From an uncultured Lachnospiraceae bacterium (GTDB lineage: Bacteria; Bacillota; Clostridia; Lachnospirales; Lachnospiraceae): 64,000 nt of DNA. Position 1 is the stretch's first letter; every line of letters starts with the position of its first letter. The translations under genes and the position numbers were made by a program. Of the stretch, positions 1 to 39,630 are shown piece by piece. Location of the stretch: the NCBI GenBank assembly GCA_947173495.1, contig CAMWFQ010000001.1, positions 186,001-250,000 on the forward strand. Reading direction: 5' to 3'. The notes beneath the pieces are model-generated. The model was given only the letters and a program-made list of their open reading frames with translations. It ran no database searches and had not been told where the DNA came from.

Positions 1-240
1 CAGCAGTGGGAGCATGAAAATGGCAGCCGCTATATTACTTTTTTCTTCAAGACTTCCTCCTTCAGCGGAGAAATTATTTCCTCAGAGGAGGGAAAAATCT
101 TCTGGATCGACAGAAAGGATCTTTCCGCACAGAAAACCGCCAGGGAATTCAGCCATATTCTGCAGATCTTTGAGCGGGATGATCTGAGCGAATTCTATTT
201 GAAGGAGCATCAGGGGATGTGGGAGAGGGTTTTCTTTTAA
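1..240 (+). CDS. Nudix hydrolase, C-terminal part (cut by window edge)
   Basis: The reading frame is open from base 1 and ends at TAA 238-240, leaving 79 residues. The stretch around FSGEIISSEEGKIFWI followed by an acidic, aromatic tail resembles the C-terminal half of MutT/8-oxo-dGTP-type Nudix hydrolases, where a residue pattern like SxEGxxFW follows the Nudix box. The Nudix box itself would lie left of the window, so catalytic competence cannot be judged. Members of this family hydrolyse nucleoside diphosphate-X compounds. The assignment rests on similarity of a short region only. Confidence 0.55.
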   Translation, partial: QQWEHENGSRYITFFFKTSSFSGEIISSEEGKIFWIDRKDLSAQKTAREFSHILQIFERDDLSEFYLKEHQGMWERVFF

Positions 241-17602: not shown

Positions 17603-17893
17603 GATCAGCGACCATGCGGCCTGCGAAAGCGGCAGACTGAGCATGATGAGGGTTTACTGTGAAAGTCCCGGACAGCGGCTGAGCAGCTGGGCAAGCCTGC
17701 TTGCACAGCTGTTCAGACATTGGACGGGCAAACCGGTACGAGCAAGAAGACCAACGGGTCGGAGTGCGAATACCGGCGGCGGCAAGGGTGTGGATGCATG
17801 AATCAACCGACTTTCATCTATGGTAGAGCGACGCATGAATGTTTCGTCAGCACAAGAGCCAGCCGAAAGGTAGATAAAATTTTCAAAAACCCC
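17603..17893 (+). ncRNA. Structured non-coding segment, possible group II intron remnant
   Basis: The gap between two convergent genes has no convincing protein but has RNA-like features on the plus strand. These are CCTGCGAAAGCGG near 17618, ACTGTGAAAGTCCCGG near 17655, the stem AGCAGCTGGGCAAGC/GCTTGCACAGCTG, CGGCGGCAAGGGTGTGG near 17777, and a tail TAGAGCGACGCATGAATG ending in GCCAGCCGAAAGG. The combination of GTGAAAGTCC and GGCAAGGGTGTGG reminds me of domain I of bacterial group II introns, but no reverse transcriptase or domain V is present, so it would be a fragment. Identification is tentative. Confidence 0.3.
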
Positions 17894-34919: not shown

Positions 34920-37900
34920 TTAATTCTGTAAAGATTCCCTGCGTTTTTTCGCATCGGCAATCGTCATCAGTAACAGACAACTGCCAGCCAGGAAAATTAA
35001 CATATACCACACCACTGAGATATCTCCTGTGGCGGGGACGTCTGCCAAAGGCACATCCTCGTCCAAAAGCTCCGTCAGTTCAGGTGCTCCTGCAAGAGGT
35101 ACTTCATCGTCCAGAAGGACGGTGAGAGGTACGATCTCGTCAGGGAGCTCCGTTAAAGGTACTTCTTCATCAGGAAGCTCTGCAAGCTCTACCGTTACAG
35201 GCGTTTCTGCAAGCGGTGTCGGCTCGTCGGGAATTTCCACACCGGGATCATCACTTAACGGAACCGGTTCATCCGGGATTACCGGATCTTCGGGATCAGT
35301 CGGAGGATCTTCGGGGTCTGTAGGAGGATCTTCTGGATCTGTCGGCGGGTCTTCGGGATCCGTGGGTGGATCTTCAGGGTCGGTAGGCGGGTCTTCAGGA
35401 TCTGTATACGTAACCTCGCTTCTTCTGTCCCAGGACCATGTTGTATTAGTTACCGTATTTGTAGCTGTTACGGTCTCAATCGTCGCGGTGGCTTCTGTTA
35501 CATTAAAACTCAGTTCAAAACTCAGATCCACTTCAGCATCACTGGTTTCCGCAGTAATAAATGTCTGAGCATCACTGAAACCACCTTTGGCCTGGATAAG
35601 ATATGCCTTCCCCACTGTCTGGCTGCCTGAAAGTCTTAAAGTTATTTTTGTTCCTTCTTCTAACCGTACATCCCTGATAATATAATTACCATTACCGTCA
35701 GGGGTAATCAGACCATACCCTTTTCCTTCTGTCTCCTCAGCCTCTTTCTCCGTCATCGTACCTGCCAGTCGTCTGGTAGCGATAACATTATTATTTGCAT
35801 CAATTATCTCCACAATTAAGTCATCATTTACTTTACTGGGGGTCACATTGAGAACAAATCCAACATCTGTCCTGTAAGCTTTTTTCTGCTCAGCATTACC
35901 ATCATTTCCAGAACTCTGATCATTCAATTTATTTAGTGCTGCAACTGCATCCTTCGTATCCTTATACTCTTCTCTGACAGTAATGCTTACACCTGTAATA
36001 CTGTCAGCTTCGATTCTGTTGCTTTTTATAACCTGCTCTGGATGATCTATCAAGAAACGATAAATCTTATTTGTCAGTTCTGCTTTCTTCGGATCCATAT
36101 TATCTGGATTTGTACTATTTCCATTTAAGTAATAGTGAACAAAAGGATTGGTATTTATCTCTTCTCCGTTTTCCACTTTCTTATCAGCCACATGAAGTGA
36201 ACCACTGCTGCCATAGTACCAGATAGCTGCCTGAGTAATTGACATTGCCATCCCCTCAGTTATGCCATCAAGATCATCACCATCCTGATATCCCATGATT
36301 GCCAGCCATTCTCTGAATGCACTCAAGCTTCCCGACTTCGAATCAGTTCCCCAATAGCCCTTTGCAGCAATTGCATTAATCTGCTTTGCCTGATCACTGC
36401 TTAAGTAGAAATCCTTCTGTTTACTGGCATCTTCCAGATCCAGTTTACCATAAGAATTACCTATCTGAGGAGCCACCGACAGATCAGCACAATATGCATA
36501 ATGCTCCTTACCATCGCTATCACGGACAATAAACTGGTGGACATTATAATAATGTTGGTCACTCTCTCCATCGTTATAATTAACCCCTACTGCACTTGCT
36601 AAACCATATTTTCCTTCATAAAGGTATCCGTCTGTATATTTTGTAACATACGTAGAACGAACCCAACCTTCATAAGGTTTTCCGGCTTCATCTGTCCGCA
36701 TTGTCACGACTTTAATCCATTTGCCATCTGCTGATTTTGTTCCTGTAGAATAGAAACATTCGCCCTCATTCAGCATAAGGATTTTATTATCCTTTTGAGA
36801 ACTACTCGGAACACCAGGCTCTTTACGGAGTGCTAAGCCGGGCTCATCATCGTCAAGGGTGTTGTATACTTCATACTTGGTTCCTGTCTGTATATACGAT
36901 TTACTTACCCAACCTTCAATTACTTTTCCTGTTTTACTATCAGTCTGCATTGTCACGACCTTAACCCATTGGCCGTTTTCTGATTCTTTCCCTGTATAGT
37001 AAAACAGTTCTCCGTTTTTCAATACAGTCTTAACAGTACTACCAGTGCTAGCATCACTCCTTACATTTAACCCTGAAGCTGTCACCTCATATATATTCGG
37101 TATAGGCTTATCTACGAATCCATATAAATCAGTATTTGTGTCAGTGTGCTTATCCGCTTCCTTTTCCTTGTCAGGTGCTAATTCTGTCGAATCACTTATA
37201 TCACCATGCCCTTCACCCTCGGTAACCTTACCTGCGGATACCTCAACCTTGCCATCAGTAGTTTTAACCTGCTCTGTGGTGGTCGACGTTGTGGTTGTAG
37301 TAATGAACTTATCGCTGTAAGTCACGGTTTCAACTGTCGTTTTGGTACGCCCATCAGGAAGTATTTCTTCTGTAGTGACAATATAACCATTTCCTTCGGC
37401 AATATCTGTTACAGTAACTTTTTTGCCGTCGGCATCTGACGCTTCCGGCTTTTCAGGGTATCCATCTGCTGGAACGGACTGATATGTGACTGTCGTTTCC
37501 TCGATCTCATAACCGATTACAGTCTCACCTTCTTTTATCTCTTTCCATCTGTACGTCACAGCATTTTCAACCTTCTTAACCACAGTAGTAGTCGTATTGT
37601 CGACAGTATTCACTGTCATGACGGTAATGAATTTTCCTTCTGCATTAGTCTCGACTGTTGTAACTTTATAACCGTTTTCAGTCTCGTCTGTTACAGTCAC
37701 TTCCTTAATCACATTACCCTTATCATCGTACTCCTTACTGCTTTCCGGTTTTGAGTCAGGTATGGTGTCCACTTCATTAGTTGTCAGGGTCTTGGTAGTA
37801 GTGACTACATAGCCCTTGTAACCATTTTCTTCCGTAAGGTTTTCCCATGCTGAAACGCTATTATCGGAATTCACCTTCTCCAGTTGATCTGCTTCAAATC

Positions 37901-38678
37901 CTTCCGGTATTTCGTTGGGCTTTGTCAGTTCTTCTGCAATGACGCCTTTATTGACTTCGATTTTTTCTTCACTATTCTTGGCTTTATAAAAACCGATAAT
38001 AGCTCCAGTGTCAGGATCTGTTACTTCTCTGACTTGCAGGTAGCTGACATTTCCATCCTTATCCGTTAGCTTATACAGACGATCAGTCCCGTTAAAGCTT
38101 TCCATAACGGCTTCATAGCCCTCTGGCAATTTCGGTTTTACGTCCTGCGTTGCAGGATCTAATTCTGCCTCCAGCCTTTCAAAGTCGCCTCCCAGATCTA
38201 CCGTTACTTCAACCGGATCAGAGATCACCTCATCACCCTTCTTATCTCCAGGATTAACTTCAATAGCTGGATCCGGATCATTCTTCGGTTCGCCTGGATT
38301 TACAGTCGTTTCTTCAACCGTAACTTTCTCTCCAGCGACCTCAACCTCTTTGGGTTCCTCAGTCGTACCTGTGCCTTCATATGTGGTAGTCGTCGTCGTT
38401 GTTTCCGTAACATCAGTTCCGTCCACTTCTTCTTCCGTTTTCCACGTACCTTCCAGCTCAACACCATCCTCGGTAGTGGCATTCCATTCACCTGTCTCCG
38501 AACCATTTCCTTCGGGTTCACTTGCAGGTTCTGTAGGAGCTGCTTCCTCCACCACCGGCGGAGTCCCTTCCTCCTGTAAATCGCCTGCCAGAACAGTGAG
38601 CTGAGGCATACTTACACACATCATGACTGCAAGGAATAGAGCAAATTTGCGCTTATATAAAGTTTTCAAGGTTCGCAT
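34920..38678 (-). CDS. Sortase-anchored thioester adhesin with SH3 domains
   Basis: The protein has 1252 residues. A signal peptide (1-32) is followed by a Thr/Glu-rich stalk of repeated strands (about 50-500), two bacterial SH3 modules (about 528-598 and 602-682), and a thioester domain with Cys730 in YAYCADLSV and Gln816 in SITQAAIWYYG. These two residues form the internal Cys-Gln thioester that couples such adhesins covalently to host amines. Downstream are a beta-rich region, a seven-unit PTDPEDP spacer, a Pro/Asp-rich wall segment, and VPATGD with a membrane helix and basic tail (AKKRRESLQN), a sortase signal variant. ATG 38678 follows GGAAGG. The long leader has three cyclic-di-GMP-I type aptamers. 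Confidence 0.88.
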   Translation of the reverse strand: MRTLKTLYKRKFALFLAVMMCVSMPQLTVLAGDLQEEGTPPVVEEAAPTEPASEPEGNGSETGEWNATTEDGVELEGTWKTEEEVDGTDVTETTTTTTTYEGTGTTEEPKEVEVAGEKVTVEETTVNPGEPKNDPDPAIEVNPGDKKGDEVISDPVEVTVDLGGDFERLEAELDPATQDVKPKLPEGYEAVMESFNGTDRLYKLTDKDGNVSYLQVREVTDPDTGAIIGFYKAKNSEEKIEVNKGVIAEELTKPNEIPEGFEADQLEKVNSDNSVSAWENLTEENGYKGYVVTTTKTLTTNEVDTIPDSKPESSKEYDDKGNVIKEVTVTDETENGYKVTTVETNAEGKFITVMTVNTVDNTTTTVVKKVENAVTYRWKEIKEGETVIGYEIEETTVTYQSVPADGYPEKPEASDADGKKVTVTDIAEGNGYIVTTEEILPDGRTKTTVETVTYSDKFITTTTTSTTTEQVKTTDGKVEVSAGKVTEGEGHGDISDSTELAPDKEKEADKHTDTNTDLYGFVDKPIPNIYEVTASGLNVRSDASTGSTVKTVLKNGELFYYTGKESENGQWVKVVTMQTDSKTGKVIEGWVSKSYIQTGTKYEVYNTLDDDEPGLALRKEPGVPSSSQKDNKILMLNEGECFYSTGTKSADGKWIKVVTMRTDEAGKPYEGWVRSTYVTKYTDGYLYEGKYGLASAVGVNYNDGESDQHYYNVHQFIVRDSDGKEHYAYCADLSVAPQIGNSYGKLDLEDASKQKDFYLSSDQAKQINAIAAKGYWGTDSKSGSLSAFREWLAIMGYQDGDDLDGITEGMAMSITQAAIWYYGSSGSLHVADKKVENGEEINTNPFVHYYLNGNSTNPDNMDPKKAELTNKIYRFLIDHPEQVIKSNRIEADSITGVSITVREEYKDTKDAVAALNKLNDQSSGNDGNAEQKKAYRTDVGFVLNVTPSKVNDDLIVEIIDANNNVIATRRLAGTMTEKEAEETEGKGYGLITPDGNGNYIIRDVRLEEGTKITLRLSGSQTVGKAYLIQAKGGFSDAQTFITAETSDAEVDLSFELSFNVTEATATIETVTATNTVTNTTWSWDRRSEVTYTDPEDPPTDPEDPPTDPEDPPTDPEDPPTDPEDPPTDPEDPVIPDEPVPLSDDPGVEIPDEPTPLAETPVTVELAELPDEEVPLTELPDEIVPLTVLLDDEVPLAGAPELTELLDEDVPLADVPATGDISVVWYMLIFLAGSCLLLMTIADAKKRRESLQN
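35284..35406 (-). repeat. 21-base tandem repeat encoding PTDPEDP
   Basis: About six units of 21 bases with third-position differences encode the proline-rich wall spacer of the adhesin. The unit length is a multiple of three, so changes in copy number would alter length without breaking the frame. Confidence 0.85.
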
Positions 38679-38720
38679 ATTTCCTTCCTTTCTTTGCAAA
38701 ACATACGGATGCAAAGTTTC

Positions 38721-38796
38721 CGGCGGCCGGGCTGACTTAGTACCGAAGCACCTTAGCCCCCATAGCTTTGCGTCCCGTCGTTTCCAACGGTTTGCT
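38721..38796 (-). promoter_or_regulatory. Cyclic-di-GMP-I (GEMM-I) type riboswitch, third aptamer
   Basis: On the minus strand: GCAAACC, hairpin GTTGGAAACGAC, GGGACGCAAAGC, TATGGGGGCTAA, second hairpin around GTGCTTCGGTAC, then AAGTCAGCCCGGCC. These are the conserved blocks of GEMM-I: the GAAA tetraloop, the GACGCAAAGC receptor strand and the GNCAGCC 3' strand. It is nearest the adhesin start; a stem CTTTGC/GCAAAG lies between it and the Shine-Dalgarno sequence. Confidence 0.85.
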
Positions 38797-38803
38797 AAAT
38801 AAT

Positions 38804-38880
38804 CAGCAGTCGGGCTGACAATAGCGGTTCAATGCGTTAGTCCCCATAACTTTGCGTCCCGCCGTTTCCGACGGTTTGCT
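38804..38880 (-). promoter_or_regulatory. Cyclic-di-GMP-I (GEMM-I) type riboswitch, second aptamer
   Basis: On the minus strand: AGCAAACC, hairpin GTCGGAAACGGC, GGGACGCAAAGTTATGGGG, ACTAA, a second arm, then GTCAGCCCGACTGCT. The core is the same as in the other two copies; AAAGT replaces AAAGC in the core strand, and the closing stem AGCA/TGCT is short. Confidence 0.82.
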
Positions 38881-38890
38881 TTTATTAATT

Positions 38891-38970
38891 AGCGGCCAGG
38901 CTGACTTAGCGTACAAAACCGCCTTAGTCCCTATGGCTTTGCGTCCCGTCGTTTCCAACGGTTTGCCGTT
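38891..38970 (-). promoter_or_regulatory. Cyclic-di-GMP-I (GEMM-I) type riboswitch, first aptamer
   Basis: On the minus strand: CGGCAAACC, hairpin GTTGGAAACGAC, GGGACGCAAAGCCATAGGG, ACTAA, arm GGCGGTTTTGTACGC, then AAGTCAGCCTGGCCGC. The closing stem CGGC/GCCG is better than in the other two copies. It is transcribed first. Confidence 0.87.
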
Positions 38971-39271
38971 GTTTCCGCACACATACTTCTGCGGACCATC
39001 CTGCTTCTCTGCTATGCAAGCATATTATGCTGCCCTGTCAGTGATGGCACCTGACCCGGCCGGGAGTCCCGGCAATCTCGGTTCTGCACAGCTCCCATGC
39101 ATACGGGCTCCACCTCCTTCTCTATCTCTGCCACTTTCCCGGGCGGTCTTTCCTGTAAGTAACCTGACGCCGCCTGCTGTGCAGGGGCCGGCTGTTTTTT
39201 CTCCGCCGCCCATAAGCTGTACTGCGGCCATCGGTAAGATTTATCTGGCCGGTCAGCATGGTTTCGTTTCC
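38971..39271 (-). other. Long 5' leader of the adhesin upstream of the riboswitches
   Basis: About 300 transcribed bases precede the first aptamer. Several GC-rich dyads are visible (for example CCGGGACTCCCGG). An AAGGAGGTGG motif precedes an ATG on the minus strand near 39099 that would encode a 24-residue peptide ending near 39025. No known RNA family was recognised. Confidence 0.4.
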
Positions 39272-39277
39272 ATTTCT

Positions 39278-39307
39278 ATCATAGCATAGCCCCCATAACG
39301 ATTACAA
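39278..39307 (-). promoter_or_regulatory. Probable adhesin promoter
   Basis: On the minus strand TTGTAA (39302-39307) and TATGAT (39278-39283) are 18 bases apart. A start near 39271 would give a leader of about 590 bases containing all three aptamers. Confidence 0.55.
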
Positions 39308-39630
39308 TACCATATTATGGAAATTATGTTCCTTCTATGTCATTCGAGGTAAGTCTACTCGACCACAACAGGATTGAAATATAATTTGAAAAAGTAGTTC
39401 CCTCTTTATAAACCGCCGCCATATGTTTATACGAAATCAGGCTGGCATCCGCCAACCTAATCGGATAGTGTTTCAGACTGGTTATTTAATTTCTTTCACA
39501 GGAGATTTCCCTGCTCTTAAGACTGCCATCATCTTTTTGGATGGAATGGCAGGGATCATTCCGAAAGTCGGATTTATTTCCAGAAACGATTGATTGCAAC
39601 ATAAAAAAACACTACAATGGAGGTATGCCT
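39308..39630. other. Intergenic stretch at the left edge of the reversed-skew block
   Basis: No gene is recognised. A hairpin CTGCCAT/ATGGCAG is present at 39523-39552. The sequence changes character near 39600, where purine-rich plus-strand coding begins. Confidence 0.4.

Follow-up and report, generated by a model that had tools for sequence, protein, structure and literature searches.

In the accessible sections of the literature surveyed, tandem GEMM riboswitches are treated as chains of independent switches. The three copies of Bc3-5 in Bacillus thuringiensis lie ~160 nt apart (G11, G171, G331), and each is predicted to have its own terminator and to act as an independent transcriptional ON switch (Zhou et al. 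2016, PMC4759541). A review counts 347 doublets and 12 triplets of c-di-GMP-I, some of which may be of the compact form described below; its Table 1, as its flattened text reads, names only glycine and guanidine-II as dual aptamers with a single platform and has c-di-GMP-I in the multiple-platform group (PMC9481103). In the available text of a 2025 survey, aptamers separated by gaps of < 20 nt are taken to share a platform, and the c-di-GMP family is enriched as separate tandem riboswitches (PMC12452182). A compact shared-platform GEMM-I array was not found in the open-access literature. For C. difficile, the accessible part of one study describes class I (GEMM) riboswitches that functioned as OFF switches, one of them ahead of a putative adhesin and with one class I exception in the initial transcript data, and two sortase-dependent surface proteins under class II ON riboswitches (PMC6200980). 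The original prediction had likened the present locus to those sortase-anchored adhesins; this analogy is not transferable, because the sortase proteins there use class II ON switches, while class I is OFF.

We analysed a stretch of 64,000 nucleotides from an uncultured Lachnospiraceae bacterium, called the window throughout, in which a coordinate equals the position on contig 1 minus 186000. Its minus strand carries three GEMM-I aptamers (Rfam c-di-GMP-I, RF01051) head to tail, upstream of a surface-protein gene:

38888..38977, minus strand: GEMM-I aptamer copy 1, 68.1 bits; base 20 is G at 38967; core GGACGCAAAG at 38946-38937
38802..38890, minus strand: GEMM-I aptamer copy 2, 61.7 bits (whole-genome search); base 20 is A at 38880; core GGACGCAAAG at 38859-38850
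38719..38806, minus strand: GEMM-I aptamer copy 3, 60.1 bits (cmscan of the window) or 66.2 bits (whole-genome search); base 20 is A at 38796; core GGACGCAAAG at 38775-38766
34920..38678, minus strand: regulated gene for a 1252-aa surface protein with SH3_3 (535-597), a TED thioester domain PF08341 (727-839) and a C-terminal VPATGD followed by a hydrophobic segment

The claim of three GEMM-I aptamers, originally made from the letters of the DNA alone, was borne out when the Rfam covariance model was run over the whole genome: the copies reach 68.1, 61.7 and 66.2 bits, all above the gathering score of 35 bits, and the outcome in which two of the three would fall below threshold did not occur. 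The predicted aptamer coordinates were correct to ~10 bases, and the 43 bases from 38721 to the adhesin start were confirmed, with the ATG at 38678. When cmscan was applied to the window, copies 1 (38977-38888) and 3 (38801-38719) were listed and copy 2 was absent, probably through overlap filtering, because its model match shares 3 and 5 bases with those of its two neighbours. Chance repeats are ruled out by the E-values of 5e-13 to 2e-11 in the one-genome search and by the lack of any RF01051 match in 14 control genomes.

The aptamers recur with a period of 84-87 nt. With neighbouring model matches that share 3 and 5 bases, the gaps are < 20 nt, within the range used for shared-platform aptamers in the available text of the 2025 survey (PMC12452182), and there is no separate platform between copies; a platform follows the last copy only. 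The layout thus differs from the known triple tandem: a platform after each aptamer, as in Bc3-5, was not found, with matches that overlap and a terminator scan that gave no terminator-like site on the minus strand in 38560-39600. The same scan rules out an intrinsic terminator as the platform of the window array. Inspection by eye revealed no consistent pairing for a conventional P1 of copies 2 and 3. As far as sequence can show, three aptamers are thus packed without room for intervening platforms, with one conserved platform after the last. By model score the array is a GEMM-I member, and its architecture is a new variant, the working of which we infer.

The target had been predicted to be a surface protein, which agrees with the TED (PF08341) and SH3 domains, both over the Pfam cut-offs, and with the C-terminal VPATGD and hydrophobic segment. 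The assembly (4.58 Mb, 52 contigs, completeness 97.41) contains nine RF01051 matches, all nine over the cut-off and all nine sitting in three triplets (the window; contig 11:81984-82242; contig 25:23660-23950). In the contig 25 array, copy 3 is drawn out to 120 nt, with a score of 37.4 bits. The three 5' leaders can be aligned from the first aptamer through the Shine-Dalgarno sequence, and each is followed by a gene for a different protein with a signal-peptide-like start. VPxTGD and a hydrophobic segment close all three proteins, and no Pfam family was over the cut-off for the proteins behind the contig 11 and contig 25 arrays. The window also holds a Clostridiales-1 RNA (RF01699) on the plus strand at 17660-17816, with 70 bits.

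RF01051 matches occur in 10 of the 37 genomes of the genus (E up to 0.001), our own counted, and in 140 of the 396 genomes of the family. Judged from where the matches lie, three close pairs occur in one sister (G001) and a close triplet plus a close pair in another (G002); the remaining seven genus members have a single match each. The exact compact-pair pattern was seen in two of 397 family genomes, our own genome counted, and a near-identical pattern in 75 stretches of a named collection. These stretches derive from Lachnospiraceae, Oscillospiraceae, other Clostridia, Bipolaricaulota and Fermentibacterota-type bacteria, plus one each titled Neomarinimicrobiota and Syntrophaceae. A stricter core definition gave 136 distinct chains (51 single, 63 double, 20 triple and 2 quadruple) and yielded a chain of at least two from 71 of the 75 named loci; the four missed (L063, L098, L108, L126) were lost either to too strict a core definition or to merging, since their first 60 bases repeat. 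From these genome and chain counts, the packed GEMM-I form is rare yet recurrent. Arrays were grouped by record title where the title names a group. Those with vague titles ('uncultured bacterium', e.g. L061, L072, L080, L089, L100, L119, L121 and L133; L124 is 'uncultured Eubacterium') were assigned from the appearance of their arrays and are not independent evidence, and two arrays outside the four groups (L077, L087) were counted apart as 'other'. In Bipolaricaulota-type loci (L062, L065, L086, L100 and others), compact GEMM-I pairs have a spacing of 59-79 nt, tighter than in most Clostridia, and lack the Clostridia platform.

That platform, which stands once after the last copy, has the order CGGA-n-CUUUGC-n-UCCG-n-GCAAAG-AAAGGA-n-AUG and comprises the following parts in the window:

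38706..38722, minus strand: stem S1, CGGA (38722-38719) with UCCG (38709-38706), starting one base after C92 of copy 3
38711..38716, minus strand: anti-core CUUUGC, complementary to GCAAAG both in each aptamer core and next to the Shine-Dalgarno sequence
38686..38697, minus strand: GCAAAGAAAGGA, the S2 partner GCAAAG (38697-38692) fused to the Shine-Dalgarno sequence AGAAAGGA (38693-38686)

S1 is located where P1 would be, directly after C92 of the last aptamer. S1 and S2 (CUUUGC:GCAAAG) follow each other in H-type pseudoknot order, and S2 overlaps by two bases the extended Shine-Dalgarno sequence AGAAAGGA, which we defined by what we take to be the 16S 3' end. The platform is thus readable as an H-type pseudoknot overlapping the Shine-Dalgarno sequence. 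At the same time, CUUUGC(A/G)UCC is the complement of the aptamer core GGACGCAAAG, except for one base when A is present.

In our own genome the platform pattern has three sites, exactly behind the three arrays. It is absent from the other 390 of the 391 genomes of a class sample, in which a reversed-pattern control had no match; since few close relatives were sampled, this result speaks for specificity, not distribution. Among compact arrays of Clostridia, the platform (by either of two patterns) stands behind 38 of 44, of which 18 are Lachnospiraceae-type and 26 other. The six misses comprise two loci whose sequence stops 54 and 112 bases past the start of the last core (L061, L069), two with a further copy downstream that carries the anti-core and a longer loop (L109, L132), one that has the anti-core without a nearby Shine-Dalgarno side (L134) and one without the anti-core (L024). 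In L109 and L132 a long insertion precedes the third copy, and the anti-core lies farther from its Shine-Dalgarno-side partner. None of the 39 Bipolaricaulota and Fermentibacterota arrays has the platform (one, L133, ends after 33 bases). Of 38 genus and family singles, three (L012, L013, L023) have hairpin and Shine-Dalgarno sequence, and L020, a weak single below the cut-off with T at base 20, has a partial platform; among 37 further, lower-scoring family singles it occurs in none.

Aligning the platform gave 39 rows, selected for S2 and excluding L020 (three of four S1 pairs). The four S1 pairs are kept in all 39, as CGGA:UCCG in 37 and with a G-C to A-U exchange in two near-identical sister loci (L012, L013), one of which also has a G-U in S1. 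The fifth S1 position is U-A in 18 rows, C-G in 4, U-G in 3, unpaired in 12 and gapped in 2. Over the platform as a whole, the covariation score of 0.049 was matched by 5 of 500 shuffles, and the 6 cells changed on both sides by 8 of 500. Another of the five covariation measures, 'further pair types', gives no support, because 472 of 500 shuffles reach its value of 4. S2 is invariant in all 39 rows, and covariation is silent on it because it never varies and the rows were chosen with S2. A frozen CUUUGC beside a drifting S1 would fit a need of CUUUGC to match the invariant core too, a reading weakened by the row selection.

Every readable gene behind the platform has a signal-peptide-like start as judged by eye, many of them of the form KRGLALFLALVMC, and several have a sortase-like motif at the end; for L064, L112, L124 and L020 the script found no ORF in the allowed window. 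This start or a similar one is shared by otherwise different platform-linked proteins (e.g. L115:7439-7999, L128:6784-7998 and L101:556-2883), and the common start suggests a shared export or regulon signature.

We tentatively propose that the window array may well be a translational OFF switch, in which three abutting aptamers with one shared platform form a stack of decoys, and of which we infer the direction, ligand and steepness. Without ligand, the platform CUUUGC(A/G)UCC would pair with an unbound core GGACGCAAAG, leaving the Shine-Dalgarno sequence free and the gene ON. Binding of c-di-GMP would lock the core of the bound aptamer. Once no free core is left, CUUUGC would pair with GCAAAG beside the Shine-Dalgarno sequence, and S2 together with S1 (CGGA:UCCG, directly below the ligand site) would form an H-type pseudoknot that partly covers the Shine-Dalgarno sequence and turns the gene OFF. 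In the window array all three cores would be able to act as decoys, so full shut-off would need all three bound.

To follow this competition, we constrained chosen aptamers to their bound fold and calculated the partition function of each leader, in a model that omits pseudoknots, tertiary contacts and co-transcriptional order. In the modelled window leader without ligand, core 3 (0.67) and, to a small extent, core 2 (0.09) capture CUUUGC. Binding of copy 3 shifts capture to core 2 (0.96), and binding of copies 2 and 3 shifts it to core 1 (0.72); when all are bound, the Shine-Dalgarno-side hairpin reaches 0.55, from 0.00 before. Other leaders behave differently in the model. In L112 and L105 cores 3 and 2 capture CUUUGC and core 1 does not, and ligand-free capture of at least 0.5 occurs in 13 of 35 distinct arrays (L003, L064, L066, L070, L073, L076, L078, L082, L083, L105, L106, L107, L112). 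Such strong capture is lacking in the other 22 of the 35 arrays modelled, including the two sister arrays, with values of 0.02 (L001) and 0.24 (L002); in L002 the hairpin even drops on saturation, from 0.64 to 0.56. In L074, L075 (one of two arrays), L080, L104, L128 and L131 the hairpin is at least 0.92 with or without forced aptamers.

The original prediction had also suggested a steep switch. A steeper response is plausible, but the effective slope in the folding model is only 1.32 for the window (and likewise for L112), against 1.0 for one aptamer. The slopes are 1.06 for L066, 0.95 for L083, 1.0 for L105 and 0.76 for L002, and undefined for L001; leaders with the last copy only give 0.98 to 1.0.

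The predicted accessibility of the window Shine-Dalgarno sequence shifts little, from 0.80 to 0.64. Because it hardly differs between states, the OFF direction rests on mutual exclusion and on precedent. In preQ1 riboswitches, pseudoknots over only the first Shine-Dalgarno bases repress, according to the accessible text of one report (PMC11625349).

Many adhesin-linked c-di-GMP riboswitches are expected to be ON. A ligand that frees or presents the Shine-Dalgarno sequence, so that c-di-GMP raises adhesin translation, is the first alternative to be weighed. S2 leaves out the six core Shine-Dalgarno bases AAAGGA and could therefore expose the site instead of hiding it, and the nearly equal modelled accessibility of the two states would suit this direction as well. 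There are precedents in Bc3-5, which is ON (PMC4759541, in part), and in the class II riboswitches ahead of C. difficile surface proteins, which are ON in the accessible text of that study (PMC6200980). However, the C. difficile class I switches are described in the same text as OFF, the bound state in the window model releases CUUUGC to pair beside the Shine-Dalgarno sequence, and by eye we saw no other anti-Shine-Dalgarno sequence that a ligand could displace. An ON switch is somewhat unlikely.

It is also unlikely that the array is simply redundant, with the last aptamer alone controlling the platform and copies 1 and 2 serving as duplicated passengers or co-transcriptional folding aids. 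Tandem duplication would be an easy origin, and the folding model offers two arguments for it: capture of CUUUGC is confined to the last core in L066 and L083, and when the window leader is cut to its last aptamer the hairpin goes from 0.00 to 0.96, a wider swing than in the triplet (0.00 to 0.55). Against redundancy, all three window copies are intact (61.7-68.1 bits) and all three cores compete in the window folding model; this genome has retained triplets at three loci, and other genera repeatedly show arrays of 2-4.

The decoy model of the OFF switch treats the cores as alike. A view of the copies as three equal sensors is probably wrong, with A instead of G at base 20 of copies 2 and 3. 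G20, A47 and C92 (Vc2 numbering) are presumably the ligand-contact bases; A47 and C92 are retained in all three window copies, and base 20, read as the base preceding GCAAAC, is G in copy 1. Only copies 2 and 3 of the window have the A found at this position in GEMM-Ib (3',3'-cGAMP). In the accessible text of the review, the ligand-contacting nucleotide is G in c-di-GMP binders and A in c-AMP-GMP binders, and one natural A aptamer binds c-AMP-GMP markedly better and still binds c-di-GMP, perhaps slightly more weakly (PMC9481103). A binding-site G to A change in each Bc aptamer reduced its response, as described in the available part of that study (PMC4759541).

We therefore counted base 20 across the arrays. 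In the Lachnospiraceae type, it is G in 18 of 18 first copies, A in 10 of 10 middle copies, and A in 16 and G in 2 of 18 last copies. The 26 other Clostridia arrays have G 24 and A 2 in first copies, G 11, A 2 and C 1 in middle copies, and A 11, C 8 and G 7 in last copies. Fermentibacterota arrays show G 11, C 4, A 2 and T 2 first, and C 9, T 7, G 2 and A 1 last. There is no such shift in Bipolaricaulota (first G 15, A 5; last G 19, C 1), and the two other arrays have G 1 and C 1 first, G 1 and T 1 last. For comparison, 75 genus and family singles have G 64, A 10 and T 1; one of them, L023 (G at base 20), is really a member of a close pair, and 13 singles from outside genus and family were omitted from these counts. 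Since the first family singles were the 30 best-scoring loci and lean towards the consensus, 40 lower-scoring loci were added, of which 37 were readable (missed: L157, L158, L176), with 32 G and 5 A. Fisher tests, uncorrected for relatedness, gave 4e-9 and 8e-8 for last copies against singles and no difference (0.11, 0.51) for first copies against singles. The change at base 20 of the last copy suggests a second ligand or a second threshold. In compact GEMM-I pairs of L067, L087, L091, L111, L113 and Fermentibacterota-type loci, one copy or both carry C or T at base 20 (CT, GC, TT); these pairs possibly have an altered ligand specificity, and the linker ACCGTTTGACTCAATGC recurs unchanged in several of them.

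Applied to the OFF switch of the window, copies 2 and 3 would probably bind c-di-GMP more weakly, or also cGAMP, because of their A at base 20, and would add a second threshold. The boldest form of this reading is an 'all-bound' RNA gate, in which identical cores are interchangeable decoys for one anti-core, translation would stop only with every aptamer occupied, and the platform-proximal copies, re-tuned at base 20 (G to A or C), would make two ligand levels or two dinucleotides necessary; we consider it quite unlikely.

Very unlikely is a gate for two signals, in which copy 1 (G20) would sense c-di-GMP, the A20 copies 2 and 3 would sense 3',3'-cGAMP or both, and the platform would integrate them. 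It draws on the A at the contact base, typical of c-AMP-GMP binders in the accessible text of the review (PMC9481103), and on the contrast of G in the first and A in 16 of 18 last Lachnospiraceae-type copies with G in 64 of 75 singles. However, no cGAMP maker was found in the genome by a SMODS search and GGDEF motifs: SMODS had no match, and the genome has 5 GGDEF domains, of which the 4 with a readable motif have Asp, not Ser (Hypr type), at what we take to be the specificity position. An EAL domain also had no match in the genome. Moreover, C in eight last copies is not explained by cGAMP, and A20 in Lachnospiraceae may serve a linker hairpin instead. With no Ser-type Hypr in the 4 GGDEF domains read and no SMODS in the genome, we favour a lower-affinity c-di-GMP sensor over a cGAMP sensor for the A20 copies of the window.

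The linkers between the window copies are as follows:

38878..38893, minus strand: linker between copies 1 and 2, GCTAATTAATAAAAGC, with 3 bp if paired end to end
38794..38807, minus strand: linker between copies 2 and 3, GCTGATTATTTAGC, a 5-bp hairpin in which copy 2 C92 and copy 3 G21 would form a pair

Because only 3 bp pair end to end, linker 1-2 has no good hairpin. Many linkers of the Lachnospiraceae type are palindromes (GCUAAUUUAAUUAGC), through which C92 and the base after it would pair with G21 and A20 of the following copy. As a general cause of A20 we rejected the linker hairpin: last copies of other Clostridia have A20 or C20 without a pairing linker. True cooperativity through such inter-copy hairpins, which would pair C92 with the next G21/A20 so that one binding frees the neighbour, is very unlikely and has the standing of a secondary hypothesis: 18 distinct Lachnospiraceae-type linkers do average 3.39 end-to-end bp against 2.23 (sd 0.24) when shuffled (0 of 2000 as high), and L130 has G-C where most of them have A-U, but the excess is absent over 35 distinct linkers of other Clostridia (2.23 against 2.27 shuffled) and in 4 of the 6 linkers of our own genome, window 1-2 included, and palindromes arise easily in AT-rich linkers.

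Farther upstream, ~100-150 nt from copy 1, a stretch of 50 bases is 82% identical between the window array (39119-39071, minus strand) and the contig 25 array (L011 7513-7562); it includes a Shine-Dalgarno-like site, and a short ORF starts within it:

39025..39102, minus strand: short ORF of 25 aa, MHGSCAEPRLPG..., upstream of the array and beginning inside the 50-base stretch common with the contig 25 array

Ten loci of relatives have a conserved stretch at a similar place with weakly covarying stems: 6 of 15 predicted pairs change on both sides, and the covariation term is only -0.19. Rfam had no match over the window stretch at E up to 1, and at gathering score only c-di-GMP-I was matched in L064, L066, L069, L078, L083, L117, L109, L132, L124 and L112. 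A conserved leader peptide was rejected: the short ORF resembles that of contig 25, but its frame is broken in L083 and shifted in L109 and L132. The stretch may be an undescribed leader element, structured or coding.

A compact multi-aptamer form with one conserved translational platform, present at three loci of one genome and again ahead of exported proteins in other Clostridia, would be a separate route to a steep c-di-GMP response. Compact arrays are natural sets of one to four aptamers per platform for studying how an RNA counts occupied sensors, and the asymmetry at base 20 makes it directly testable whether one RNA integrates c-di-GMP with another dinucleotide. The platform itself can serve to trace a surface-protein regulon across Lachnospiraceae and further Clostridia.

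Compared with known systems, the window array has points of likeness with several and departs from each. The A at base 20 of copies 2 and 3 recalls the GEMM-Ib or c-AMP-GMP riboswitches, but no cGAMP synthase was found in the genome by the SMODS search or among the GGDEF motifs read. Paraclostridium has tandem c-di-GMP-II riboswitches ahead of surface anchor genes (COG4932), which likewise combine repeated c-di-GMP sensors with surface-anchor targets; they belong to another aptamer class and are predicted in the available text to be pseudo-cooperative (PMC9481103). The tandem glycine riboswitch also places like aptamers ahead of one expression platform, with another ligand and fold and commonly two aptamers, whereas the window has three of GEMM-I. 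The preQ1-I pseudoknot of T. tengcongensis, as described in the accessible text (PMC11625349), is likewise an H-type pseudoknot overlapping the first Shine-Dalgarno bases; there it is the aptamer itself, and in the window it would be a separate platform under a GEMM aptamer. Like Bc3-5, the window carries three GEMM-I aptamers in one 5' leader, but in place of ~160 nt spacing, a terminator for each copy and ON switching, it has 84-87 nt spacing and one translational platform, which is predicted to be OFF.
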